DNA from: an uncultured bacterium
GTDB lineage: Bacteria; Krumholzibacteriota; Krumholzibacteriia; LZORAL124-64-63
Assembly (NCBI GenBank): GCA_903912525.1
Contig: CAIWHK010000062.1
Coordinates: forward strand, 1 to 38,202
DNA length: 38,202 nt
Reading direction: 5' to 3'
The notes under the pieces are model-generated. The model saw only the letters and a program-made list of their open reading frames with translations, was not told where the DNA came from and made no database searches. Both the position numbers and the translations under genes were made by a program. Shown here one piece after another: positions 1,746 to 30,540 of the stretch. The number at the start of each line of letters is the position of its first letter. Within the stretch, counting starts at the first letter, position 1.

Positions 1746-1786
1746 TATTATTGCTGAGGAATCCCCCCTGCCTCAGCGACAGGAGA
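1746..1786 (+). promoter_or_regulatory. Possible leader of the selenoprotein gene: -10-like box, hairpin and ribosome binding site
   Basis: TATTAT at 1746-1751 resembles a -10 box, but no good -35 lies 16-18 bases upstream. A perfect 7-bp inverted repeat follows (GCTGAGG 1753-1759, CCTCAGC 1771-1777) with an 11-base C-rich loop, just before the AGGAGA ribosome binding site at 1781-1786. The hairpin could act as a leader element or as a weak terminator for the upstream gene; it has no T-tract. The promoter call is weak. Confidence 0.3.
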
Positions 1787-1792
1787 CACCGC

Positions 1793-2989
1793 ATGCGCAG
1801 ATCCCTGCCCGCCGTCGCCCTGGTGGCGCTGGTCCTGCTTGCGACCGCCGCCGCGGCCGCGACCGACCCCGCCGCCCCCCTGACCTACGACAAGGCCCTC
1901 AAGATGGCCAAGCACGAGGGCAAGGTCCTCGTCATCGACTTCTACGCCGATTGGTGACCCAGCTGCAAGGTGTTCGCCCGTGAGGCGAGCAGCAGCGAGA
2001 TCATCAAGGGCGCCATGGCCGATGTCATCTTCCTGGCGAACGACTGCGAGAAGGGCGAGGGCCCGGCCATCGCGAAGAAGTTCGGCATCCGCGGCTACCC
2101 CACCTACTACGCCGTCAACGCCAAGGGCGAACCCATCGAGCGCTGGATCGGCTACGACACGGCGCAAGGCTGGGCCGACCGCGTGGCGGCCGCCCGCCGC
2201 GACACGCGCACGCTGGTCGAGAAGAAGGCTGCGTTCGCCATCGCCCCCACGGCCGAGCTCGCCGAGACGATGGCCAACGACGTGGCCACCGACTACGACT
2301 GGGCCGGCAGCGTGGCGTTTTTCAAGCAGACCCGCGAATTGGCCCCTGCGCGCGCCGACGAACTGACGCGCATGATCTTCATGTACATGGCCGAGGCCGA
2401 CCCCACGGACTTCACGTTCGAGGACATCCGGATCGAGGGCGATCGCGTCCTGAACGCCGTCGGCACGACAGCCGAGGATCGCGTCGAACTGGGCTCGCTG
2501 ATGATGAATGCAGCCGAGAGCCATGAGCGCCTGGCCGCCGGCATCCCCTACCTCGAGCGCGCCCTGGGCGCGGCGACCGGCCTGCCGGACGACTCGAAGG
2601 TGGCCCGCACGGTCAAGTTCCTGCAGATCACCCATGCGCTGATGGTCGAGAAGAACACGCAGCGCGCGGTCGACCTGCGCAAGTCGCTGATGCCGGAGAA
2701 CTGGCAGCAGGAAGCGCGGCGCCTCAACCAGTTCGCGGCGTGGTGCCTCGACAACGGCGTGAACCTCGACGAGGCCGACGGGACGGTGCTGAAGGCCGTC
2801 GAACTGGCCAAGACGGACGCTGAGCGCGGCCGCTACCTGGCGACGGCGGCCGAGATCGCCCTGAAGCGGGGCGACGCGAACGCGGCGGTCGAGCGCGGCA
2901 AGCAGGCGCTGGCTCTGGACCCCGCGAACGAGGACACCGTGGACCTGGTGGCGCGGGCCGAGGCGGCGCTGGCCGGCAAGGCCGAATAG
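1793..2989 (+). CDS. Exported thioredoxin-fold selenoprotein (UxxC active site) with an alpha-helical, TPR-like C-terminus; in-frame TGA read as selenocysteine
   Basis: ATG at 1793 follows AGGAGA. Codons 1-23 encode a signal peptide (basic start, Leu/Ala/Val core, Ala-rich cleavage region). The frame then reads KVLVIDFYADW, TGA, PSCKVF and stays open to the TAG at 2987-2989, giving 398 residues with Sec as residue 55. In thioredoxins this place reads FYADWCxxCK, so the TGA sits exactly on the first active-site Cys and gives U-P-S-C with resolving Cys58. A later GYPTYY supplies the cis-Pro loop of the fold. The remaining ~250 residues look helical and end in a TPR-like stretch (RGDANAAVERGKQALALDPAN). 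The likely role is periplasmic thiol/disulfide exchange or peroxide reduction; the substrate is unknown. Codon use and frame are normal on both sides of the TGA, and neighbouring genes use TGA as stop, so reassignment is unlikely. A simple nonsense mutation cannot be fully excluded. The Sec machinery (selA/B/C/D) is not in the window. Confidence 0.85.
1955..1993 (+). promoter_or_regulatory. Selenocysteine TGA codon with bacterial SECIS-like stem-loop
   Basis: The TGA is 1955-1957. An upper stem TCGCC (1974-1978) pairs perfectly with GGCGA (1984-1988), closing the five-base loop CGTGA. A lower stem GCTGC (1962-1966) pairs with GCAGC (1989-1993), leaving a 7-base bulge on the 5' side. The loop begins 21 bases after the TGA and has G as its second base followed by U. 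As I recall the bacterial SECIS consensus, the apical loop lies about 16-37 bases from UGA and carries a G in its first two positions, so this fits. The fold was made by hand. Confidence 0.7.
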
Positions 2990-3041: not shown

Positions 3042-3412
3042 TCCTGTCAGGGGCCACCGTGCGGCCATCGGGATGCCAGGCGCACGTGGTCGGGCGCGCG
3101 ACTGGTTGACCGATCCACCAGTTTGCCCGGGCTCGGCCACGAATCAGCGCGACGCCGCACGGCCTAATATATTTACCAACAGCCAGTTACGCGTGAGCCC
3201 AGGATCCGGCGAAGCCGCTTCCAAACCTCGTGCCGCACGGACTTGCGCCGGCGCAAGTCCCCCACTCAAGCGCTTGCCCTGGCGGACACCCGAAGTCGAC
3301 AACTGAAAAACGATATCAATCTCATCCGATTTGTGGCATGCTGACTCTATAGTCTCCGCGCCGGCAGGTGCCGGCTCACCGCTTTCCCCCCGCACGACGG
3401 GCAAAGGTACCG
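3042..3412. other. Intergenic region upstream of the first complete kinase
   Basis: No convincing gene is present; the short open frames have no ribosome binding site or recognisable product. It holds the 22-bp palindrome at 3239-3260 and two AT-rich patches in otherwise GC-rich DNA: around 3164-3176 (TAATATATTT) and 3302-3353. TATAGT at 3348-3353 is a possible -10 for the kinase gene, but the -35 is poor. Confidence 0.5.
3239..3260. repeat. Recurrent perfect palindrome, copy 1
   Basis: The 18-bp core ACTTGCGCCGGCGCAAGT (3241-3258) is a perfect inverted repeat, extended here to 22 bp by flanking GG/CC. The same core recurs at 20415-20432, and its 14-bp centre at 14187-14200. All three copies are intergenic. 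It could be an extruded hairpin, a dyad operator or a REP-like element; the sequence alone does not decide. Confidence 0.8.
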
Positions 3413-6100
3413 ATGCTGGCCTCCGGCACCATGCTGGGTCCGTACCAGATCCTGGCCCCGCTGGGCGCCGGCGGGATGGGCGAAGTCTACCGCGCCCGCG
3501 ACACGCGGCTCGGCCGCGACGTCGCCGTGAAGGTGCTGCCGCCCCACCTGGCCGACACGCCCGAGGCGCGCGCCCGCTTCGATCGCGAGGCGCGCACCGT
3601 CTCGCAGTTGAACCATCCGCACATCTGCACGCTACACGACATCGGCAGCCAGGACGGCGTCGACTACCTGGTGATGGAGCTCGTCGAGGGCGACACGCTG
3701 GCCCGTCGCCTGGAGAAGGGTCCGCTGCCGGTCGCCGAGGTGCTGTCGCTGGGCCGGCAGATCGCGCAGGCGCTGGATCGCGCGCACCGCGCCGGCGTGG
3801 TGCATCGCGACCTGAAGCCCGGCAATGTCATGCTGACCAAGGGCGGGGCGAAGCTGCTCGACTTCGGCCTGGCGCGCGCGCTCGGGCTGGCGCCGAACAC
3901 CGATGCGATGTCGCGGTCGCCGACAATGACGGGGCCGCTCACCGCCGAGGGCACCATCGTCGGCACCTTCCAGTACATGTCGCCGGAGCAGCTCGAAGGC
4001 AAGGAAGCCGACGCGCGCAGCGACCTGTGGGCTCTGGGCTGCGTGCTCTTCGAGATGACCACCGGCAGGCGCGCGTTCGACGGCGGCAGCCAGGCGAGTT
4101 TGATCGCGGCGATCATGGAACGCCAGCCGCCCCTGCTGTCGACCGTTCAGCCGGTGACGCCCCCGCAGCTGGAGCGCGTCGTGGCGCGCTGCCTGCAGAA
4201 GGATCCCGACGCCCGCTTCCAGAGCGCGGGCGACCTCGCCTTTGCCCTGGAGGCCGATGGTTCGAGCGCGGCCAGCGTCATTTCCGGCCGGATGCCGACA
4301 CCCGCCGCGCGCCGGGGCCGCGGCCGAATGATCGCGATCGTCGGGCTCGCGGCCGTGGTGACGGGCGTGCTGCTGGGCGTCGCGTTCAGCCGGCGCCTGG
4401 GCACGGGGCCCACCGCAAGCATCGGCGATGCCGCCTCGGTGCGCCGGTTCGACCTGGTGCTGCCCGACTCGCTGCCGCTGGCCTATGTGGGCGACTCCGT
4501 CCTCGGGCTGGAGACGAAGGCGCTGGCCTTGTCCCCGCGCGCGGACATGCTCGTCTATGTGGCCGGTCAGCGCGGGCACTCGCTGCTGGTGACGCTGGAC
4601 CTGACGACCGGCGCGGCCCAGCCGCTGCCCGGGACCCAGGGCGCGTTCTGTCCCTTCTTCTCCCCGGACGGCAACTGGATCGGATTCCTGGCCGGGACGG
4701 ACCTGAAGAAGATCGCGGTGCGCGGTTCGGCGCCCGTCGTCCTGGCCAACGTGGAGGAAGCCTACGCGGCCCAGTGGCCCGAGCCGGAGAAGATCGTCGT
4801 GGTCGAGAGGCAGGGCCAGCAGGTGACGACCGTGCGCGCGAGCGGCGGCCGCCTCGACTCGTTCAAGACATCGCCACGCATGGGCTGGGCGCAGTTCCTG
4901 TCGCCTGACCGGACACGGCTGGCGTGGACCTGGAACCGCCAGATGGCCACGTACGAGTTCAAGACGGGCACGACGTCGTTCCTGACCAACCGCGGGCTCG
5001 TGCCCGAAGGATCGGTCACACCCGCGGACCTGCTGTACGGGATGTCGCCGGTGCTCCTGGCCCCCGACAAGCTGCTGTACGTCCAGCCGGGCAGCGGCGG
5101 CGCCATGGTGGGCGTGCCGGTCGATCGCGGTTCGTTGCGCCCCCTGGCCGACCCGGTCCAGGTCGCGACCGACGTGCGCGTCTCGGCCACGGCCGCGGTG
5201 TCGCAGTACAGCCTGTCGGCCGGCATGCTGGTCTACGCGGCCGACCCGGGGTCAGGGACGTTGCGCTTCGTCCGCCGCGGCGCCGACGGCAGGGACGAGG
5301 CCCTGGCCTTCCCGCCGGGTGACTACGGCAGCTTCGAGCTGTCCCCCGACCACGACCGACTGGCCGTCATCAAGCGGCCGCCGTCGGGCGAGCCCGAGCT
5401 GTGGCTCTTCGACCTGGCCCGCGGGACCCAGGAGCGGATCCGCAGCTCCGTCTACGGCCTCGGCAGCTGGTCGGCCGACGGGCTCGGCTTGTGCGTCTCG
5501 GCCGGTGGAACGGGTTCGGTCAGGAAGGCGCTGCGCGTGTGGATGGACGGCACGGGCCGGGTCGATTCCCTCGCGGTCGGCGTGGCCACGGCCTACAGCG
5601 CGGTCATCGAGTCGCCGGACCGGCGCTGGTCGCTGCGCCTGAACGCCGACGGCGGCGCCATGGTCGGCGCAGACGGCCGCAGCACCGACATCCCCAACGT
5701 TTCGGGCCTGGCCCGCTTCTCGCCGGACAGCCGGTGGCTGGCGGCCACGTACAGCGATGGCAGCCGGTCCGAGGTCTACGTCTGCCCCGTCGACCAGCCG
5801 TCCCGGCGCGTCCGCGTCTCGACCGCCGGCGGCGAGGAGCCGCGCTGGAGCGAGGACGGGGACTCCATCGTCTATCGCTTCGAGAACGCCTGGTACCGGT
5901 CGAGCTTCCTGCCCGGGCCGCAGCCGACGGTGGGGCTGCCGGTGAAGGAGTTCACCGGGCCCTACGTCAACGTCGGCGGCTATTCCCACGACGTGTTCCC
6001 GGACGGCAGCCAGTTGCTGGTGCTCGGGTCGGGCAGCGACGTGGCGCGGCGGCTTCGCGTCGTCACGGGCATGGAAGCGCTGTTCAAGACAGCGAAGTAG
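3413..6100 (+). CDS. Membrane Ser/Thr protein kinase with extracytoplasmic PD40 propeller
   Basis: 895 residues from ATG 3413, preceded by AAAGG; an in-frame upstream start at 3368 would add 15 residues with no domain content. The kinase domain is complete: glycine loop GAGGMGEV (18-25), Lys40, catalytic HRDLKPGN (131-138), DFG (150-152) and SPEQ in place of APE (190-193). A Thr/Ser-rich activation segment (SRSPTMTGPLT) offers autophosphorylation sites. One transmembrane helix lies near 307-324 (IAIVGLAAVVTGVLLGVAF). The rest is a TolB/PD40-type propeller with blades such as FFSPDGNWIGFL and FSPDSRWLAATYSDG. It should phosphorylate cytoplasmic proteins in response to something sensed by the outer propeller; no target is evident. 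It lies 44 bases before a second kinase of the same design, so co-transcription is likely. Confidence 0.93.
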   Translation: MLASGTMLGPYQILAPLGAGGMGEVYRARDTRLGRDVAVKVLPPHLADTPEARARFDREARTVSQLNHPHICTLHDIGSQDGVDYLVMELVEGDTLARRLEKGPLPVAEVLSLGRQIAQALDRAHRAGVVHRDLKPGNVMLTKGGAKLLDFGLARALGLAPNTDAMSRSPTMTGPLTAEGTIVGTFQYMSPEQLEGKEADARSDLWALGCVLFEMTTGRRAFDGGSQASLIAAIMERQPPLLSTVQPVTPPQLERVVARCLQKDPDARFQSAGDLAFALEADGSSAASVISGRMPTPAARRGRGRMIAIVGLAAVVTGVLLGVAFSRRLGTGPTASIGDAASVRRFDLVLPDSLPLAYVGDSVLGLETKALALSPRADMLVYVAGQRGHSLLVTLDLTTGAAQPLPGTQGAFCPFFSPDGNWIGFLAGTDLKKIAVRGSAPVVLANVEEAYAAQWPEPEKIVVVERQGQQVTTVRASGGRLDSFKTSPRMGWAQFLSPDRTRLAWTWNRQMATYEFKTGTTSFLTNRGLVPEGSVTPADLLYGMSPVLLAPDKLLYVQPGSGGAMVGVPVDRGSLRPLADPVQVATDVRVSATAAVSQYSLSAGMLVYAADPGSGTLRFVRRGADGRDEALAFPPGDYGSFELSPDHDRLAVIKRPPSGEPELWLFDLARGTQERIRSSVYGLGSWSADGLGLCVSAGGTGSVRKALRVWMDGTGRVDSLAVGVATAYSAVIESPDRRWSLRLNADGGAMVGADGRSTDIPNVSGLARFSPDSRWLAATYSDGSRSEVYVCPVDQPSRRVRVSTAGGEEPRWSEDGDSIVYRFENAWYRSSFLPGPQPTVGLPVKEFTGPYVNVGGYSHDVFPDGSQLLVLGSGSDVARRLRVVTGMEALFKTAK

Positions 6101-6144
6101 AATCGCCCGATGTCTTCCCCGCACTCACAGGACTGAGAGGCCCG

Positions 6145-8868
6145 ATGCAGATCAAGCCCGGCACCATCCTGCACCAGTACCGTTTCGGCGAGCCCATCGG
6201 CGCCGGCGGCATGGGCGAGGTCTACCGCGCGCACGACACGAAGCTCGGGCGCGAGGTGGCCATCAAGGTGCTTCCGGCCGCGGTGGCGCAGGATCCGGAA
6301 CGCCTGGCGCGCTTCAAGCGCGAAGCGCAGCTGCTGGCCGCCCTCAACCACCCGAACATCGCGGCGATCTACGGGCTCGAGGACTCGGGCGACACGCTGT
6401 TCCTGGTCCTGGAGCTCGTCGAGGGGGAAGACCTCGCCGAGCGCCTGAGGCGCGGGCAGATCCCGGCCGACGAGGCGATCGAGATCGCGAAGCAGGTTGC
6501 CGACGCCGTGGCCGAGGCGCATGACAAGGGGATCGTCCACCGCGACCTGAAGCCCGCGAACGTGAAGCTGACGCCCGACGGCAAGGTGAAGGTGCTCGAC
6601 TTCGGCCTGGCGAAGGCCGCCGCGGGCGACGCCTCGGCCGTGAGCGGGTTCGACGCGGGGAACTCGCCGACGATGACACAGGCCGCGACGATGGCCGGCA
6701 TCATCCTCGGCACCGCGGCCTACATGAGCCCCGAGCAGGCGCGCGGCAAGCCCGTCGACCGGCGCACCGACGTCTGGGCGTTCGGCTGCGTGCTCTATGA
6801 GATGCTCACCGGCGCCAAAGCGTTCGAGGGGGACGATGTCACCGAGACGCTGGCCGCGATCGTCCGCGGCGAGCCGGACTGGGCGCGCCTGCCGGCGGAC
6901 CTGCCGCCCGCCGTGCGCATCCTGATCGAGCGCTGCCTGGTCAAGGACCGCGCCGCGCGCCTGTCCGACATGTCGGTCGTGCGCTTCCTGATGAGCGACA
7001 CCGCCGTGTCGCTGTCCGGCGCCGCTGTGGCGACTGCGGCGGCGCCCGCACCGGCGAGGGCGCGGCGCATGATCGCGCCGCTCGTCCTCGCCACCGCCCT
7101 GCTCGTCGTGGCCGCAACGTTCGGGGTCACGCGCTGGCTGGCGCCCGCCGCCGGCAGCGGGGCAGGCGGCGTCACGCACGCCAGCATCGTCCTGCCGGAC
7201 GGCGTCGAACTGGGCTCGGTCGCCCTGCTGCCGCTGGCGATTTCACACGACGGAGAGCGCATCGCGTTCGTCGGCGCCGACGGCGGGAAGAACCGGATCT
7301 ACGTCCGCGCGCTGGACGAATACGAGGCCCGGGCGCTCGAAGGAACCGAGGGCGGCGACGGCCCCTTCTTCTCCCCCGACGGCCAGTGGATCGGGTTCTT
7401 CGCCGGCTCGAAGCTCCGCAAGATCGCCGTCGGCGGCGCCGCGCTCCAGACCCTCGCCGACGCGCCGAGCCATCGCGGCGGCGACTGGGGCGACGACGGC
7501 TTCATCTACTTCGCGCCGACGAACGTCGGCGGCATCTGGCGCGTGCCCGAAGGCGGCGGCGAGGCCACCGAGGTCACGCGCAAGGAGCCCGAAAAGGACG
7601 AGATCAGCCATCGCTGGCCGCACCTGATCGCCGGCACGAACACGCTTTTGTTCTCGATCTGGACGGGGCCGGGCGACGACGAGCATCACATCGCGATGAA
7701 GAAGGTCGGCTCGGCGGAACACCACGTGCTCGTCAAGGGCGGCGATGCGCCGCGCTATGCGCCGCAGATCGCGTCGCTGCTCTACACGCACGGGGGCGAA
7801 CTGTTCGCGGTGCCCTGGAAGCCGTCGCAGACGGACCTCGGCAAGGCCGTGCCGGTGGCCGCGCCCGAACGCCCGCACGACAACCTCGGCAATGAGGGCT
7901 GCGGCAACTACACCGTCTCGGACAACGGCACGCTGGCCTACCTCGCGGGCGGGAAGACCCGCAATGCCACGCGACTGGTGTGGGTCGACAGGTCCGGCAA
8001 GCCCGAACTGGCGCCGGTGCCCGAGCACAAGTACGAGAACGCCGCGATCTCGCCCGACGGCTCAAGGGCGGTCGTGCAGATCAACGAAGGCGTCACGGCC
8101 CTGTGGATGTACGACATCGGCCGCGGCACGTTGACGCCGATCGGCAACAGCGCCGGCAGCAGCCAGGCGCCCCTGTGGACGGCGGACGGGACGCGCGTGC
8201 TCTACCGCGGCACGCGCAAGGGCACCCGCAACATCTACTGGCGATCGGCGGACGGCTCCGGCGACGAGGTACGCCTCACCTCGAAGGCCGACGTGGTGCA
8301 CACGCCGACGTCCGTCTCGGCGGACGGCCGCTGGCTCCTGTTCGATGAGGGCGGGCCGAACCAGAAGGCCGGCGCCGGCGTCTGGGTCATGCGCCTCGAT
8401 GGCGATGGGACGTCGCGGCCCTTCGTCGCGGAATCGCTCGGCGAGCGGGACGGGCAATTCTCGCCCGACGGCCGCTGGGTCGCGTACCAGGTGCTGGTGG
8501 CGTCCCGGCATGAAGTCTACGTGACGCCGTTCCCGGGGCCGGGCGCCCGGCACCAGATCTCGACCGACGGCGGCACCGAGCCGTTGTGGTCGCGCGACGG
8601 CCGCGAGCTGTTCTTCCAGAGCGGCACGAAGCTGATGGCCGTCACCGTCACGCCCGGGGCCGCGTTCTCCGCGAGCGCCCCGCGCGTCGTGCACGAAGGC
8701 CGCTTCTTCAAGACGATCAACGGCAACACCAGTTGGAGCCTCACCCCGGACGGCCAGCGCTTCCTGCGCATCCAGAACGTGGTGCCGGAGCGGGCGATCA
8801 CCGGGTTCGAGCTGGTGTTGAACTGGTTCTCGGAGTTGGAACAGCGCGGCGCGGCCGACCGGAGATGA
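6145..8868 (+). CDS. Second membrane Ser/Thr protein kinase with PD40 propeller
   Basis: 907 residues from ATG 6145, with GAGAGG four bases upstream. The frame is open far upstream, but that part is antisense-type shadow within the preceding gene. Kinase motifs: GAGGMGEV (19-26), Lys41, HRDLKPAN (132-139), DFG (152-154), SPEQ near 195-198. The activation segment contains NSPTMTQAATMAG. A transmembrane helix is at about 308-327. The C-terminal ~570 residues form PD40 blades (FFSPDGQWIGFFAGSKLRKI, FSPDGRWVAYQV). The phrase SPDGxWIGFxAGxxLKKIAV also occurs in the preceding kinase, so the two are paralogues. The stop overlaps an ATG of the next gene (ATGA at 8865-8868), suggesting translational coupling with the hydrolase. 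Confidence 0.93.
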   Translation: MQIKPGTILHQYRFGEPIGAGGMGEVYRAHDTKLGREVAIKVLPAAVAQDPERLARFKREAQLLAALNHPNIAAIYGLEDSGDTLFLVLELVEGEDLAERLRRGQIPADEAIEIAKQVADAVAEAHDKGIVHRDLKPANVKLTPDGKVKVLDFGLAKAAAGDASAVSGFDAGNSPTMTQAATMAGIILGTAAYMSPEQARGKPVDRRTDVWAFGCVLYEMLTGAKAFEGDDVTETLAAIVRGEPDWARLPADLPPAVRILIERCLVKDRAARLSDMSVVRFLMSDTAVSLSGAAVATAAAPAPARARRMIAPLVLATALLVVAATFGVTRWLAPAAGSGAGGVTHASIVLPDGVELGSVALLPLAISHDGERIAFVGADGGKNRIYVRALDEYEARALEGTEGGDGPFFSPDGQWIGFFAGSKLRKIAVGGAALQTLADAPSHRGGDWGDDGFIYFAPTNVGGIWRVPEGGGEATEVTRKEPEKDEISHRWPHLIAGTNTLLFSIWTGPGDDEHHIAMKKVGSAEHHVLVKGGDAPRYAPQIASLLYTHGGELFAVPWKPSQTDLGKAVPVAAPERPHDNLGNEGCGNYTVSDNGTLAYLAGGKTRNATRLVWVDRSGKPELAPVPEHKYENAAISPDGSRAVVQINEGVTALWMYDIGRGTLTPIGNSAGSSQAPLWTADGTRVLYRGTRKGTRNIYWRSADGSGDEVRLTSKADVVHTPTSVSADGRWLLFDEGGPNQKAGAGVWVMRLDGDGTSRPFVAESLGERDGQFSPDGRWVAYQVLVASRHEVYVTPFPGPGARHQISTDGGTEPLWSRDGRELFFQSGTKLMAVTVTPGAAFSASAPRVVHEGRFFKTINGNTSWSLTPDGQRFLRIQNVVPERAITGFELVLNWFSELEQRGAADRR

Positions 8869-24003: not shown

Positions 24004-25329
24004 CTACCTGATGTAACCCAGCGACCGCAGCTGCCGCCTGATCTCCTCGTCCACCTTCTCGTCGGTTTCCGCCGGTGCACCGCCCGCCGCCGGGCGCAGC
24101 GCCAGGTACGACGTCACGCGGTTCTTCTCGATGTGCGGCACGCGGCCCTGCCCGGCCGGCGTCAGCGCCTCGGCCAGCACCGCGCCGGGCATATCCTTCG
24201 CCGGCGGCAGGTCCAGCAGCGCCAGCATCGTCGGGCAGATATCCAGCAGCTTCACGTGGCCGAACGTGGCGCCCGGCGTGTAGAGCGGGCTGCGCACCAT
24301 GAAGATGCCCCACTCGGAGTGCTCGGCAGTACCCTTGCCTTCGTCGCGCGGGCCGTAGAATCCGTGGTCCGAAACGATGACCGCCGGCTGGTCGGCGGGG
24401 AACCACGACAACACTTCGCCCACGGCTTCGTCGGCCCAGGCGTAGTACCGGGCGACGATCTCGGTGAACGCGGCGCGTTCGGCCGGGTCACGGTGCCAGT
24501 CCGCGGGCGGAATGGCCAGGTAGTGATAGAACCCGTGGCTGATCATGTCGGGTCCGCGCAGGTAGAAGAAGAACAGGTCCGCCGCACGCTGGTCCTTCAG
24601 CTGCCGAGCCACCGCCAGGTAACCCAGGTCGGCGGCCCAAATGTCGCGCAGCTTCTGCAGCACGTCGGGATACGCCTTCTCCAGCGCGGCGACATCCGCG
24701 CCGTCCGGGAAGAAGCGCGCCAGTTGCGCCGGCGTGAACGACTGCGGGTCGACGCGGCAGGCGACGACCTTGTCGGCCAGCGAATCGGGGGAAACCAGGC
24801 CGGTCAGCGGACGGTTCCGCTCGCGCCCGTACGGCAGGTAGTCGCTGACCATCACGCCTTTGATCGGGCGGGCGGGATAGGTCACCCACATCCCGTTCAC
24901 GAACGTCGTGCGTCCGGCCGCGCCGATGATGTCCCAGATGGCCGGCGCGTGCCAGGCGCTGCCGGTGACCGGCTTCTCCTCGTCGCCCTTGACGAAGTTG
25001 TCGACGCCGTGGACCGAGGGCAGCACGCCGGTGCAGATGCTCGCCCACAGCAGGGGCGATTTCTCGAGCGGATAGAACGACTGCATGCGGCCCGCTGCCG
25101 CCTGCGCGCGGAAGGCCTTCAGGTTGGGCATGCGGCCGTCGGCCAGCAGCGGGTCGAGCAGCTTCCAGTCCGCGGAGTCCAGGCCGATGACGAGCAGCTT
25201 CGCGGGCGCCTTGCCGGCGGCTCCCGGCTTCGCGCCCGAATCCTTCGCGTCCCCGCTGCCGCACCCGCACGCCAGCACCAGCACCGCCAGCGCAAACATT
25301 CCCAGTCCCCGCCGCACCGTTCCCATCAT
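24004..25329 (-). CDS. Lipoprotein alkaline-phosphatase-superfamily phosphodiesterase (type I PDE/NPP-like)
   Basis: 441 residues. ATG at 25329 shares its A with the TGA of the preceding gene and has GGAG five bases upstream, so the two are translationally coupled. The N-terminus is a lipoprotein signal (FALAVLVLACGCGSG, Cys21 or Cys23). AP-superfamily metal and nucleophile sites: GLDSADW (Asp51), KSPLLWASICTG (probable nucleophile Ser91), HG (107-108), DMISHGFYHY, SDHGFYGP and HSEWGIFM. The family cleaves phosphodiesters or transfers phospho-alcohol groups using two metal ions, usually outside the cytoplasm. The protein ends in DEEIRRQLRSLGYIR, nearly repeating the end of the 65-residue protein two genes upstream. 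It is the last gene of a five-gene cluster that begins at 30540. Confidence 0.88.
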   Translation of the reverse strand: MMGTVRRGLGMFALAVLVLACGCGSGDAKDSGAKPGAAGKAPAKLLVIGLDSADWKLLDPLLADGRMPNLKAFRAQAAAGRMQSFYPLEKSPLLWASICTGVLPSVHGVDNFVKGDEEKPVTGSAWHAPAIWDIIGAAGRTTFVNGMWVTYPARPIKGVMVSDYLPYGRERNRPLTGLVSPDSLADKVVACRVDPQSFTPAQLARFFPDGADVAALEKAYPDVLQKLRDIWAADLGYLAVARQLKDQRAADLFFFYLRGPDMISHGFYHYLAIPPADWHRDPAERAAFTEIVARYYAWADEAVGEVLSWFPADQPAVIVSDHGFYGPRDEGKGTAEHSEWGIFMVRSPLYTPGATFGHVKLLDICPTMLALLDLPPAKDMPGAVLAEALTPAGQGRVPHIEKNRVTSYLALRPAAGGAPAETDEKVDEEIRRQLRSLGYIR

Positions 25330-26150
25330 CAGATCTCCACCTTCAGCACGTCCTTGAGCGCCAGCCCGCCCAGCATCGAGAGCACCATGAACGCCAGCAG
25401 CCAGTCCAGTTCCACGCCCAGGTAGTGCGTGCTGCGCGCCGGGTAGCGCAGGCGCGTTTCCGCCACGGCGCCGCTGCCTGGCAGCTGCCGCTCGCCCGGG
25501 TACAGCAGCGCATGGGTCCACGACGTGCTGGCCGTCTCGGCCGTACGCGGCAGGCCGCCGCCGGCCGCCAGCACGCGGGTCGCCACCGGCACGCCGGCCA
25601 GGGTCACCGCCAGGTCGTACCGCCCCGGCTTGTCCGCGCGCACGCGCCAGGCCGCGGCCGCGCCCGGGCGATCACGCACGGGTCCGGCCTCGACGGTCAC
25701 CCCGTCGGGCGCGGTCAACTGCAGTTCGTCGAGGCGCGACGCCGCCGACGGCGCCAGCGTGACGGCCACCACCGCACTCTCGCCCACGTACAGCGGGCGC
25801 CGCGCGTAGCGGGCCTCAAGCTGGGCGATCGTCAGCACCATCGGGATCAGCATCACGACCAGCGCGGGCAGGCTCGCCGCCACGTAGCGCAGGTTCGCGC
25901 GCGCGAGGTCGCGCTGGATGCGCCCGACCACGCGCATCTGGTCCTGGTACAGGCCCATCTCGTAGATGTGACCCATCAGGCGGTCGCGCGCGGCAGCCAG
26001 CTTCGCCTGCGGCGTCACCGCGCGGAACACCAGCAGGGCCCACACCGCCGACAGCACCGACACCACGGCCAGGCCCAGCGCCGGCGCTCCACTGAAGGGC
26101 GCCAGCACCAGGTCGAACACGCGGCCCATGATGCCGTTGACGACGTTCAA
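25329..26150 (-). CDS. Membrane protein with an EMC3/TMCO1/YidC-reminiscent N-terminal half and an extracytoplasmic beta domain
   Basis: About 273 residues. The start is uncertain: adjacent TTG codons at 26153 and 26150 follow GGAGG (26155-26159), and the first ATG is at 26129, too far from it. Helix 1 is near residues 22-43; then comes a charged helical stretch (TPQAKLAAARDRLMGHIYEMGLYQDQMRVVGRIQRDLARANLRY) and helix 2 (PALVVMLIPMVLTIAQLEARY). This TM, cytoplasmic coiled coil, TM plan recalls Oxa1-superfamily DUF106/TMCO1 proteins, but I cannot confirm homology. Residues ~115-240 form a beta-rich domain (RPLYVGESAVVAVTLAP ... DKPGRYDLAVTLAGVPV), and a last helix lies near the C-terminus (LDWLLAFMVLSMLGGLALKDVLKVEI). 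It is coupled to the lipoprotein PDE gene, so it may assist or anchor these enzymes (inference). Confidence 0.7.
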   Translation of the reverse strand: MNVVNGIMGRVFDLVLAPFSGAPALGLAVVSVLSAVWALLVFRAVTPQAKLAAARDRLMGHIYEMGLYQDQMRVVGRIQRDLARANLRYVAASLPALVVMLIPMVLTIAQLEARYARRPLYVGESAVVAVTLAPSAASRLDELQLTAPDGVTVEAGPVRDRPGAAAAWRVRADKPGRYDLAVTLAGVPVATRVLAAGGGLPRTAETASTSWTHALLYPGERQLPGSGAVAETRLRYPARSTHYLGVELDWLLAFMVLSMLGGLALKDVLKVEI

Positions 26151-26162
26151 CAATCCTCCACG

Positions 26163-26360
26163 CTACGAGATGTAGCCCAATCCCTGCATCCGCTTGCGGA
26201 TCTCCTCCTCGGAGTCCCCGCCTTCCTCGAACTTCGCGATCTCGCGCTCGAGCACGTGGCGCACGAATTCCTCGGGCGTCGCGTACCCGGCGATGCCGGC
26301 GTACTTCTTCACCTTCGCCAGCAGGTCCTTGTCGATCTTCAGTCCGCCACCGCCGAACAT
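26163..26360 (-). CDS. 65-residue conserved-looking small protein with LGYIS tail
   Basis: ATG at 26360 has AAAGAGG five bases upstream; the stop is 13 bases before the next gene's start. The sequence starts MFGGGGLKIDKDLLAKVKKYAG, followed by YATPEEFVRHVLEREIAKFE and SEEEIRKRMQGLGYIS. The middle resembles a ribbon-helix-helix DNA-binding fold (strand, helix, helix), so it could be a small regulator. The tail EEEIRKRMQGLGYI matches the C-terminus of the lipoprotein PDE (DEEIRRQLRSLGYI), which argues for a shared interaction motif. It is easy to miss, because a much longer frame runs through it. Confidence 0.75.
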   Translation of the reverse strand: MFGGGGLKIDKDLLAKVKKYAGIAGYATPEEFVRHVLEREIAKFEEGGDSEEEIRKRMQGLGYIS

Positions 26361-26425
26361 CGCAGCCTCTTTCCGTTGCGCGCCGGTCCAGGCACCGGCA
26401 GCGACGCCGGCGCCCTCGCCATCGC

Positions 26426-28423
26426 CTATTCGCTGAACAGGTCCCCGCCCACCATGTCCGACGGCACCGGCACCCCGAACAGCTTCAGGATGGTCGGCGC
26501 CATGTCCACCAGCGCGGGGTCGGCGCGCCGGATCGGCCGGTTCACCAGGAGCACGCCGGGCACCTCGTCGGCGGCCATGCAGTGGTCGCCGCTCCACTTG
26601 AGCATGTTGTCGGTGAACACCGTCTCGGTCAGCCGGCCCAGCGCCGACTCGTTGCTGCCGCGCCAGCCGCGGTGGTAGCCCATCACGATGTCGGGCCCGG
26701 TGCCGAGCATCGCGCCGTGGTAGACCTCGTCGGCGCGGTACGCGTACTTCACGGCCGGCTTGCCGTCGATGGGATCGGTCACCACTTCGAGCTTCGCCTT
26801 CAACTCGGCCAGCAGCGCCTTCTCGGCCGCGCCCGGCTGGACGATGCCCTCGCGCTCGCGCCCCGCCAGGTTCAGGTACAGCCCGTTCAGGCCCACCGCG
26901 TAGGCGCGCGTTCGCGACCAGTCGACGCCCAGCAGCATGTCGACATTGCCCGGCTCGACGCCGGACTTCAGCACCAGGTAGCCGTTCTGGTGCAGCCACG
27001 TGTTGACGTGGAAGGCGCGGTTCCAGGGCGCGAAGCCGTGGTCGCTCATCACCATGACGATGGCGCCCTCGCCGGCGCGGTCCAGCGCCAGGCCCAGGGC
27101 CTCGTCCAGCTCGCAGTAGACCTGCCGGATGCGCCCGGCCAGCGCCGGGTCCGCGGACCCGTGCGTGGGCGAGGTGGGATCCATGTTCCGCCACATCATG
27201 TGGCAGTTCTGGTCCGGCGCGTTGAAGTAGAAGTAGAGCAGCCCGCGCTTCACCTTCGCGAAGCGGTCGAGCTCGGCGCGAAGCTGGCGCATGTGCTCGC
27301 CCCGCACCAGCTCGCTCTGGTGCACGTAGTCGGCGTCCTCGAAGAAGCCGTTCTCCAGCGCGCTGGTGTCGTCCGGCAGGCCCTGCGTGTAGTACGGACC
27401 GGCCTGCGCGGCCAGCTCCTTGCTGTACCCGGGCGGCGTGCTGATCGGCATCTCGGGGCGGCTGGGATCCAGCTGCACCGGCGTCACGTACAGCTTCAGG
27501 TGCGGCGACGTGCTGATCAGGTAGTAGCGGCAGATGCCGTGCACGGTCTTGACCACGGGCATCATCGGGAAGTCGACCGGCACCCAGTCGCTCCACTCGC
27601 CCTCCTTGAGCACCACCTCGTAGGTGCCCGCGCGCAGCCACACCGAGCCGCGCTCCTGGTCCACCACGCCGTCGACCGCGGCCAGCACCTCGGGATCGCC
27701 CTGGCGCCACGTGTTGCGCGGGCCGGACAGCGTCGCCGAGAAGCGCCCGTCCTGCAGGTAGACCGACTCGACGCGGCCGCCGGCCAGGTCGCGCTCGACC
27801 GGCGGGTCGGTGGTGATCAGCGTCGAGATGCCGTAGCTGCCGGTGATGTCGGGCGTGCCCATGCCCGACAGCGAACGCACTTCGCAATCGACGGGCGGAA
27901 AGTTCGCCGGCACCTTGAAGATGGTCGCATCGACGCCCGCGGCCGGCAGCAGCTCCCAGAACGCCGTCCCCTGGCGCAGGTTGCGCACCTTGCCGGCGCC
28001 GCGCGGGATCTTCCACGCGCCCAGCTTCCAGAACTTGTCCGGCGTGCTCGCCTCGCTGGCCGAGAAGCGCGGCATCATCGTCTTGGGGTCGCGATGGATG
28101 AAGTCGAAGATGCCGTGCCCGCCCGGGTCGCGCCCGGTGATGAAGTTCGACCACGCGACCGGCGACTGCGGCGGGATCGACGTGCCGAACGGCGCCAGCT
28201 GCCCGCCCTGCGCCAGGAAGCGCGAGAAGTTCGGCAGCACGCCCTCGTCCAGGAACTGCTTCAGCAGGATCGGGTCCATGCCGTCGAAGCCGAGGATGAC
28301 CACGCGCGGCCCGGCTTGGGCCGTTCTTGTTTGCGGCGGCGCGGCCTGCGCGCACGGCGCCATCACCCCGACCGCCATCACGACCAGCAGCAACGCCGCC
28401 ACCTGCCTGCGCATGCGCCTCAT
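26426..28423 (-). CDS. Exported alkaline-phosphatase-superfamily phosphodiesterase
   Basis: 665 residues from ATG at 28423, which overlaps the preceding gene's stop (ATGA), with GGGGAGG four bases upstream. A signal peptide ends near CAQAA. AP-superfamily motifs: ILGFDGMDP (Asp47), PPQSPVAWSNFITG (probable nucleophile Ser87), GGHGIFDFIHRDP, NAPDQNCHMMW, MSDHGFAPWNRAFHVNTWL and KWSGDHCMA near the end. A beta-rich insert lies between the nucleophile region and the second metal site. It is paralogous to the next gene upstream (same GHxIFDF, SDHGF, WSGDHCM and PxVLL order). The substrate is unknown; family precedent suggests phosphodiester or phosphonate hydrolysis, or phospho-group transfer onto envelope glycans or lipids. 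Confidence 0.88.
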   Translation of the reverse strand: MRRMRRQVAALLLVVMAVGVMAPCAQAAPPQTRTAQAGPRVVILGFDGMDPILLKQFLDEGVLPNFSRFLAQGGQLAPFGTSIPPQSPVAWSNFITGRDPGGHGIFDFIHRDPKTMMPRFSASEASTPDKFWKLGAWKIPRGAGKVRNLRQGTAFWELLPAAGVDATIFKVPANFPPVDCEVRSLSGMGTPDITGSYGISTLITTDPPVERDLAGGRVESVYLQDGRFSATLSGPRNTWRQGDPEVLAAVDGVVDQERGSVWLRAGTYEVVLKEGEWSDWVPVDFPMMPVVKTVHGICRYYLISTSPHLKLYVTPVQLDPSRPEMPISTPPGYSKELAAQAGPYYTQGLPDDTSALENGFFEDADYVHQSELVRGEHMRQLRAELDRFAKVKRGLLYFYFNAPDQNCHMMWRNMDPTSPTHGSADPALAGRIRQVYCELDEALGLALDRAGEGAIVMVMSDHGFAPWNRAFHVNTWLHQNGYLVLKSGVEPGNVDMLLGVDWSRTRAYAVGLNGLYLNLAGREREGIVQPGAAEKALLAELKAKLEVVTDPIDGKPAVKYAYRADEVYHGAMLGTGPDIVMGYHRGWRGSNESALGRLTETVFTDNMLKWSGDHCMAADEVPGVLLVNRPIRRADPALVDMAPTILKLFGVPVPSDMVGGDLFSE

Positions 28424-30540
28424 GCCGCCTCCCCGTCGCCGGGCGCGAAGATGCTGCGCCCGGTCATGTGCGCCGGCGCCGGCAGCCCGAGCAGGTCGAG
28501 CACCGTCGGCGCCAGGTCGACCAGGTTGGGTTTCGTCGACGCGAACGGCAGCGAGCTGAACAGCACGCCCGGCACCTGCCGCGGATCCATGCAGTGGTCG
28601 CCCGACCAGCTGCGCGTGTTGTCGGCGATGACGACGCCGCTGACGGCGCCCACGGCCGCATCCCAGTCGGCGCGGTAGCCGATCTTGTAGCCGACGATCA
28701 CGTCGGGCCCGTTCTCGCGGTACGGCCCCTTGTACACGTCCTCGGCCGCCCACAGTTCGGTGATCGCTTCCTGGCCCCCGCGCCCGTCGTCGGGCAGGCC
28801 GCGCAGCCTGTCGATGATCTCGCGCTTGAGCGCCATCGCCTCGGCCGGCTCCACGCAGCCGCCGTGCTCGCGACCCTTGATGTTCAGGTAGAACCCGGCC
28901 AGGCCGTTCGTGTAGGCGCGCGTCCGCGGCCAGTCGATGTCGCCGACCTCGTAGCGCACGCCCTCGGGGATCGCCGGCAGGGGCCCGTTCGCGGGATCGC
29001 TCTTCAGGAACAGGTAGCCGTTCGCGCGGAACCACGCGTTGAGGTTCACGCCGCGCTGGAACTGCTTGAAGCCGTGGTCCGAGGCCACCAGCAGCACGTC
29101 GCCCCGGCGCATCTTCGCGCGCGTCTCGCCCACCAGCGCGTCGGCGCGGCGGTACAAATCGAGGATGGCGTCCTTGTGCTTCTCGACGTCCTTGCCCCGG
29201 TTGGCCGGGTGCCCGGGGTCGAGGTAGCGGAAGAACATGTGCTGGATGCGGTCGGTGGCGTCGAACACGACCGAGACCACGCCCTCGGGCGTGCGGTCGA
29301 GCGCGTGCAGGAACTGCGTGCGCCGCTCTTCGTGGATGGCGTAGGCCTGGTCCAGGAACGCCTGCTCGTCGATGACGCGCTCGTTCAGCGCCCACGTGTC
29401 CTCCGCCAGGCCGAGCGTGGCGTACGGCCCGTGCAGCTTCGCCAGCGCGATCGCCAGGTGCGGCGGGTTGCTGATGGGCACCGCCGGCTTCGCGGGGTCG
29501 ATGTGCAGCGGCGTCACGTAGAACCTGAACCGCGGCGCGAACGACGTCACCCGCACCCGGCAGATGCCGTGCGCCTTCTGCGTGCCCTTGCCGAAGCCGA
29601 CGCCGATCCAGTCGGAGTACTCGTCGGGACCCAGGGTGAACGTCTCGCCGCCCAGGGTGAACGTGGCTTTCGCCGCGGCGCGGTCCAGCTTGACGGTGAC
29701 CGTCGCCAGCAGCGGCGTCGAGCCGTCGGGCGCATCCGGCCCCGGCAGCGCGCCCGTGAACGCGCCTTCGCCCTTGCCGGGAGAAAGCAGCAATCGCACG
29801 CCGCCCGTGGTGGCGCCGGCATCCTCGGCCGCGCCCGCCGCGAGCGGCTCCCTGAATTCGGTGAACGTCCCCTGCGTGCCGCGCAGGTCGGGCACGCACA
29901 TCGCCGACAGCAGCTTGCCGCCGAAGCGGTCGGGCGGGAACGTGATCGGCACCCGCAGGATGCTGGTGGCGACGCCCGCCTCGGCGCACGTCGTCCAGAA
30001 CGGCTTGCTGCGCTTGAGCGACTCGAACGGGTGCGCCCGCGACGGCAGCGTGATCGGGCCCAGCTTGCGCGCGGGCGCATTGCGCAGCCGCGTCGACGAC
30101 AGCGTGGGCAGGTGCGTGAACTTGTCGCGCGTCAGGAAGTCGAAGATGTTGTGGCCCGAGGCATCGACGCCCGTCGCGAACGTCGACCAGCCCACCGGCG
30201 ACATCGCCGGCCACGTCGTGCCCAGCGGACGGTACGTGCCCTCGCGCCGCAACTGGTCCAGGTTGGGCAGCTGCCCCTCGTCCATCCAGCGGCGCGCCAG
30301 CCCCGGGTCCAGTCCATCGAGCCCCAGCACGATCACCCGCCGCGCCTTCGCCCCCTTGCGCCGGCCCTTGCCGCTGAGCGCGCGGACGACGACGCGCGCC
30401 GGCCACAGCAGCAGCGCCAGCAGCGCCAGCAGGATACCCGCGAGCGCGAACAGGAACGAGCCGCCCAGCGCAAAGCCGGCCCCGGGGCCGATGTAGGCCG
30501 GGGCGACGTTCAGCGCGGCGATGGCGGGAACGAACAGCAT
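28420..30540 (-). CDS. Membrane-anchored alkaline-phosphatase-superfamily phosphodiesterase, first gene of the cluster
   Basis: 706 residues from ATG at 30540; the nearest GAGG is about 13 bases upstream, so initiation looks weak. The N-terminus carries APAYIGPGAGFAL and then a long hydrophobic helix (about residues 26-50), with a basic RRKGAKARR stretch before the enzyme domain. Catalytic signatures: VLGLDGLDPG (Asp75), WPAMSPVGWSTFATG (probable nucleophile Ser114), GHNIFDFL, DATDRIQHMFF, ASDHGFKQF (Asp488, His489) and SWSGDHCMD. It ends four bases inside the next gene. Presence of both a TM-anchored and a signal-peptide paralogue suggests the same chemistry on different envelope substrates (inference). 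Confidence 0.88.
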   Translation of the reverse strand: MLFVPAIAALNVAPAYIGPGAGFALGGSFLFALAGILLALLALLLWPARVVVRALSGKGRRKGAKARRVIVLGLDGLDPGLARRWMDEGQLPNLDQLRREGTYRPLGTTWPAMSPVGWSTFATGVDASGHNIFDFLTRDKFTHLPTLSSTRLRNAPARKLGPITLPSRAHPFESLKRSKPFWTTCAEAGVATSILRVPITFPPDRFGGKLLSAMCVPDLRGTQGTFTEFREPLAAGAAEDAGATTGGVRLLLSPGKGEGAFTGALPGPDAPDGSTPLLATVTVKLDRAAAKATFTLGGETFTLGPDEYSDWIGVGFGKGTQKAHGICRVRVTSFAPRFRFYVTPLHIDPAKPAVPISNPPHLAIALAKLHGPYATLGLAEDTWALNERVIDEQAFLDQAYAIHEERRTQFLHALDRTPEGVVSVVFDATDRIQHMFFRYLDPGHPANRGKDVEKHKDAILDLYRRADALVGETRAKMRRGDVLLVASDHGFKQFQRGVNLNAWFRANGYLFLKSDPANGPLPAIPEGVRYEVGDIDWPRTRAYTNGLAGFYLNIKGREHGGCVEPAEAMALKREIIDRLRGLPDDGRGGQEAITELWAAEDVYKGPYRENGPDVIVGYKIGYRADWDAAVGAVSGVVIADNTRSWSGDHCMDPRQVPGVLFSSLPFASTKPNLVDLAPTVLDLLGLPAPAHMTGRSIFAPGDGEAA

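Follow-up and report, generated by a model that had tools for sequence, protein, structure and literature searches.

The gene at positions 1793–2989 (plus strand) of the 38,202-nucleotide stretch of DNA analysed here, which as a whole we call the window, raises the question of whether its single in-frame TGA, at 1955–1957, is read as selenocysteine (Sec), and what kind of protein would result. The frame runs from an ATG at 1793 to a TAG at 2987–2989, and the TGA, its sole internal stop, falls where a thioredoxin CxxC motif would have its first cysteine (FYADW-U-PSCK). The first-pass annotation of this DNA had described one TGA splitting an otherwise intact gene at the first active-site cysteine; its coordinates proved exact, and the frame holds no second stop. 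It had also anticipated that a standard annotation would truncate the protein, and translation under table 11 indeed yields only a 339-residue open reading frame that starts at a GTG at 1970, downstream of the TGA, so that both the signal peptide and the active site would be lost. The features of the locus are as follows.

1781–1785, plus strand: Shine-Dalgarno-like AGGAG, 7 nt upstream of the ATG, read directly from the sequence.
1793–2989, plus strand: complete gene, 398 codons with UGA taken as Sec, with full-length homology in about 30 relatives.
1793–1864, plus strand: signal peptide, residues 1–24 (MRRSLPAVALVALVLLATAAAAAT), no lipobox, assigned by inspection, with similar hydrophobic N-termini in homologues.
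1883–2197, plus strand: thioredoxin-fold domain, approximately residues 31–135, with cis-Pro 103 in a GYPT motif (Pfam, model and fold matches).
1955–1957, plus strand: predicted Sec55 UGA codon, in a U-P-S-C motif with resolving Cys58; TGA in 29 genomes, TGT or TGC in four full-length Cys homologues.
1972–1990, plus strand: predicted bSECIS hairpin, with a 7-bp stem (1972–1978 paired with 1984–1990) and the loop CGUGA (1979–1983).
2213–2971, plus strand: C-terminal TPR-type helical solenoid, residues 141–393, 14 helices (AlphaFold2, Foldseek and TPR families).

The TGA at 1955–1957 is the only one in the window that is flanked on both sides by dozens of coding-like codons. Comparison with the closest relative (81% identical) gave dN/dS values of 0.34 upstream and 0.40 downstream of it, which indicate that purifying selection acts on either side. 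Within the class, the gene has a TGA at this alignment column in 29 genomes, the window's included, and its proteins are 25–81% identical to that of the window; 24 of these genes (again counting the window's) are in the alignment, and the other five (L024, L170, L179, L180 and L181) were checked by motif or at the DNA level. Sequencing reads with TGC or TGT at this codon had been named at the outset as an observation that would overturn the Sec reading; such an error is untenable, because 29 genomes that were assembled separately all have this TGA. More broadly, the gene might be a pseudogene or an assembly artefact, with the TGA representing a nonsense mutation or a miscalled cysteine codon, and the window does belong to a draft assembly (72 contigs, 98% complete). 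Against this stand the identical codon in those independent genomes, the selection on both sides of it, and the conserved SECIS element and complete Sec machinery described below, and we give this explanation virtually no weight.

The homologues further constrain what position 55 can be. Four full-length homologues of family f5 carry TGT, TGT, TGC and TGT in the TGA column, and eight more distant homologues also have cysteine at the Sec position. Cys58 and Pro103 are invariant. The alignment suggested by the first-pass annotation thus returned either TGA or a cysteine codon (TGT/TGC) at position 55 and never an unrelated residue. The Cys-type homologues in families f5 and f6 of the class (the latter partly full-length) likewise combine a thioredoxin domain with a TPR-type part; they differ from the window's gene in that TGT or TGC replaces the TGA and in that they have no SECIS.

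Directly downstream of the UGA lies a candidate bacterial SECIS element, whose five-nucleotide loop begins 21 nt past the codon. From the TGG codon onward, a 54-nt segment folds with a minimum free energy of −24.9 kcal/mol (z = −3.3). A single-sequence test proved uninformative in this GC-rich window, where 66% of random TGAs satisfy the published bSECIS rules in a relaxed form and a stem of at least 7 bp is found at 10% of them; the selenoprotein case is therefore carried by comparative evidence. RNAalifold, applied to 24 genes, recovered a stem (TTCGCC/GGCGAA) with a five-base loop of CGTGA or CGTGC, 21 nt after the TGA, in which 98.2% of the stem cells were paired, versus 34–57% when the pairing partners were slid. 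Two stem pairs show changes on both sides, with a G-C pair replaced by A-U in L017 and L033. The stem stood out from shuffled controls in the number of cells paired (2/500) and in its covariation score (1/500), but not in the number of pairs changed on both sides (239/500), because three of the seven pairs never vary. The arginine of the apical loop is encoded by CGT in all 24 genes, although CGT makes up just 11% of the arginine codons in these genes. A covariance model built from the 24 genes scored the five held-out Sec genes at 35.7–67 bits and found no SECIS in the Cys-type genes, where the best score across twelve loci was 11.4 bits. Every Sec-type gene thus keeps the predicted hairpin, with changes in the stem that compensate for one another. 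A search of the window's genome for other genes sharing this element returned none of note, as is expected since bSECIS elements differ between families.

The genes needed to decode UGA as Sec had been proposed as a further check, and all four are present in the window's genome: SelA (448.8 bits), SelB (336.1 bits), SelD (358.3 bits), and a tRNA-Sec that scores 67.5 bits in Infernal (cut-off 47) and to which ARAGORN assigns the anticodon TCA. The SelD gene (G000:C49:3567–4481, minus strand; L182:1068–1982) contains one in-frame TGA of its own, and SelD is thus itself a predicted selenoprotein. SelA was found in 56 of the 58 genomes searched, the four Cys-form genomes included; it had no match in one TGA-form genome (G004, locus L018), which is probably an assembly gap, the assembly being 90% complete. 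These observations also bear on a reassignment or readthrough of TGA as another amino acid, such as tryptophan or cysteine, in this lineage. Such a reading would account for an in-frame TGA being read through; however, genes of this same family in the same class terminate with TGA (for example L012, L013 and L014), the tRNA-Sec has the anticodon TCA, and the hairpin is kept only in TGA-type genes, and we regard reassignment as extremely improbable. Judged by these comparisons of sequence, the UGA at 1955 is almost certainly read as Sec, and the gene at 1793–2989 very probably encodes a real selenoprotein.

The distribution of Sec and Cys forms is itself structured. When Sec and Cys labels were placed on a maximum-likelihood tree, three changes were needed, versus 10.4 with shuffled labels. 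The four Cys rows of f5 and one long-branched paralogue from f1 cluster beside a Sec row from f2, and a reversion from Sec to Cys is possible, on a tree whose inner supports are moderate and of which several branches are long. The four f5 proteins belong to members of the class whose genomes have SelA, which implies that Sec is not essential everywhere to the function. Since the two forms coexist while SelA is kept, the class offers a usable natural comparison of Sec and Cys versions of one protein, one that bears on the old question of why selenium stays at some catalytic sites. A scan of named genome contigs, in which the matches were mostly to the thioredoxin domain and in other phyla, found no Sec form outside the class; the class search and the phylum search covered the same 80 genomes. 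A Cytophagales protein (L042:3001–4044) has three consecutive thioredoxin domains resembling that of the selenoprotein.

An N-terminal signal peptide is seen by inspection in the window's protein and in most full-length homologues, and suggests a periplasmic location. The domain that follows scores above the cut-offs of PF13899, PF00085 and PF13098, and has the layout of a thioredoxin-type oxidoreductase, with a UxxC motif preceding the active-site helix and a loop that carries the cis-proline. AlphaFold2, run on 14 of our own and fetched sequences, returned a model with a mean pLDDT of 91.4 and a pTM of 0.81, in which the signal-peptide region is of low confidence, a thioredoxin fold extends to residue 136, and 14 helices span residues 141–393. 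The long helical C-terminus that the first-pass annotation had attached to a UxxC thioredoxin-fold selenoprotein can accordingly be described as a TPR-type solenoid, by both the model and its Foldseek matches. TPR families match up to nine of 14 members, with E-values up to 0.01, and do not match the window's own protein. TPR-type helical domains are of a peptide-binding type. Within this part of the protein, Cys318 (codon 2744–2746) is shared by every one of the 29 aligned sequences that extend this far, the Cys forms among them. In one relative (L031:1042–2790) the thioredoxin-TPR selenoprotein has a chalcone-isomerase-like domain (PF16036, 78 bits) fused to its C-terminus.

Taken as a whole, the locus is best explained, with high probability, as encoding a probably exported redox protein in which a thioredoxin domain with UPSC for CxxC, its Sec specified through the SECIS, is joined to a TPR part that may dock clients. 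SelB and Sec-tRNA(Sec) would decode the UGA at 1955 as Sec, steered by the bSECIS hairpin. Outside the inner membrane, the selenolate of Sec55 would attack client proteins at their disulfides or oxidised thiols, and Cys58 would resolve the mixed intermediate. A DsbD-type protein would re-reduce the oxidised selenenylsulfide, and the TPR part would dock or hold the client or a partner protein. We infer the redox steps from the fold and the known chemistry of thioredoxins. A DsbD-type gene is present in the window's genome (PF02683, 184 bits; PRK00293, 275 bits, below the cut-off of 330). Export and a thiol-redox role are probable; the docking of clients by the TPR part we put at even odds. Judged from its parts, the protein is most likely a disulfide reductase or isomerase of the cell envelope that uses its TPR part to hold the client.

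Peroxides are the substrates of several thioredoxin-fold selenoprotein families (PMC13188914), which lends something to a reading in which Sec55 is peroxidatic and the protein is an envelope enzyme linked to peroxide, sulfenic acid or methionine sulfoxide, and no disulfide reductase. We consider this improbable, as the matches above cut-off are to Thioredoxin, Thioredoxin_2 and Thioredoxin_7, with AhpC-TSA falling below its cut-off, and the combination of UxxC and cis-Pro is typical of disulfide oxidoreductases.

Alternatively, the holding of clients by the TPR part could be the main job, and the Sec site would then protect the thiols of clients or repair them, in the manner of the chaperedoxin CnoX. 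The top Foldseek match to the PDB by E-value is E. coli YbbN/CnoX, which has the same order of thioredoxin and TPR domains and is followed by consensus TPR proteins and DsbD-gamma, and the invariant Cys318 lies within the TPR part. The match to YbbN, however, has TM-scores of only 0.22–0.30 and an rmsd of 21 Å, so that just the domain order is common to the two and the packing differs; YbbN is also absent from the best 60 PDB matches by sequence. The DnaK and GroEL systems, to which CnoX passes its clients, are cytosolic, and a CnoX-type protein would be cytosolic too, whereas the one encoded here has an N-terminal signal peptide. The homolog from Caulobacter, which keeps its active site, acts as both holdase and reductase (PMC6282202). 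On balance we judge an exported seleno-chaperedoxin unlikely, although it deserves more weight than the peroxidatic reading. A somewhat more speculative proposal is that the protein represents a folding factor of a new type: a chaperedoxin that is exported and depends on selenium, whose TPR part holds damaged envelope proteins while Sec restores their disulfides or oxidised thiols and Cys318 participates in the relay. The disulfide reductase or isomerase reading is the one we retain.

Neighbouring genes, called by codon score, included no redox partner, and nothing redox-related recurs around the gene in the window or in its relatives. An Amidohydro_3 gene lies upstream on the same strand in ten relatives (L131, L132, L133, L135–L139, L141 and L142), directly so in nine of the ten with gaps of 108–241 nt, and may form a transcription unit with the selenoprotein gene; in the window's genome the two are not adjacent. 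We therefore set genomic context aside as a guide to function, given the missing Amidohydro_3 gene beside the window's copy and the lack of any recurring redox gene. Genes resembling Ser/Thr protein kinases, with a C-terminal beta-propeller-like part (1–1703, 3368–6100 and 6100–8868, plus strand), lie on either side of the selenoprotein gene, and its two nearest relatives have similar neighbours. A minus-strand cluster at 24004–30540, comprising phosphodiesterase-like genes, a conserved membrane-protein-like gene (25329–26150) and a 65-residue gene, recurs near the selenoprotein gene, on the opposite strand, in about eight relatives; in the window it lies 21 kb away. An OsmC-family gene (PF02566; 23438–23899, plus strand) has ordinary cysteine codons.

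Selenoproteins with a thioredoxin fold and a UxxC motif are well known. A 2026 inventory of prokaryotic selenoproteins, comprising 119 families and subfamilies, lists among others Trx, thiol:disulfide interchange protein, several Trx-like families and Trx7/PDZ (PMC13188914). Its Sec-containing Trx and thiol:disulfide interchange protein (PF00085/PF13098) have the same fold, with Sec at the first active-site cysteine in a UxxC motif (PMC13188914). Compared by domain and motif names, none of the entries bears a name that indicates a long C-terminal part of TPR type, and a listed family may still contain members of this architecture. A full-text literature search combining selenoprotein, thioredoxin and tetratricopeptide found no description of such a protein, and no NCBIfam model passes its cut-off for it. 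The predicted selenoprotein would thus add an architecture unlisted by name to the prokaryotic selenoproteome, from a class with SelA in nearly all of the genomes searched (56/58), and in at least 29 species annotation under the standard code would lose both the export signal of the protein and its active site.

The closest single-domain relatives, by both sequence and fold, are DsbD-gamma and the a domains of PDI; these have neither a TPR-type tail nor Sec, and DsbD-gamma belongs to a membrane protein. Among solved structures, the best sequence match to the thioredoxin domain is 2kuc, a putative disulphide isomerase (4.4e-14) of 130 residues that has no TPR part. By the predicted model, the nearest solved architecture is that of the cytosolic chaperedoxin YbbN/CnoX of E. 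coli (3qou, 3qdn), in which an N-terminal thioredoxin domain is likewise followed by a TPR domain in a single chain. That protein has about 280 residues, with SxxC in E. coli, no Sec and a different packing of its domains, whereas the selenoprotein described here is longer and has a signal peptide, an intact UxxC and 14 C-terminal helices.
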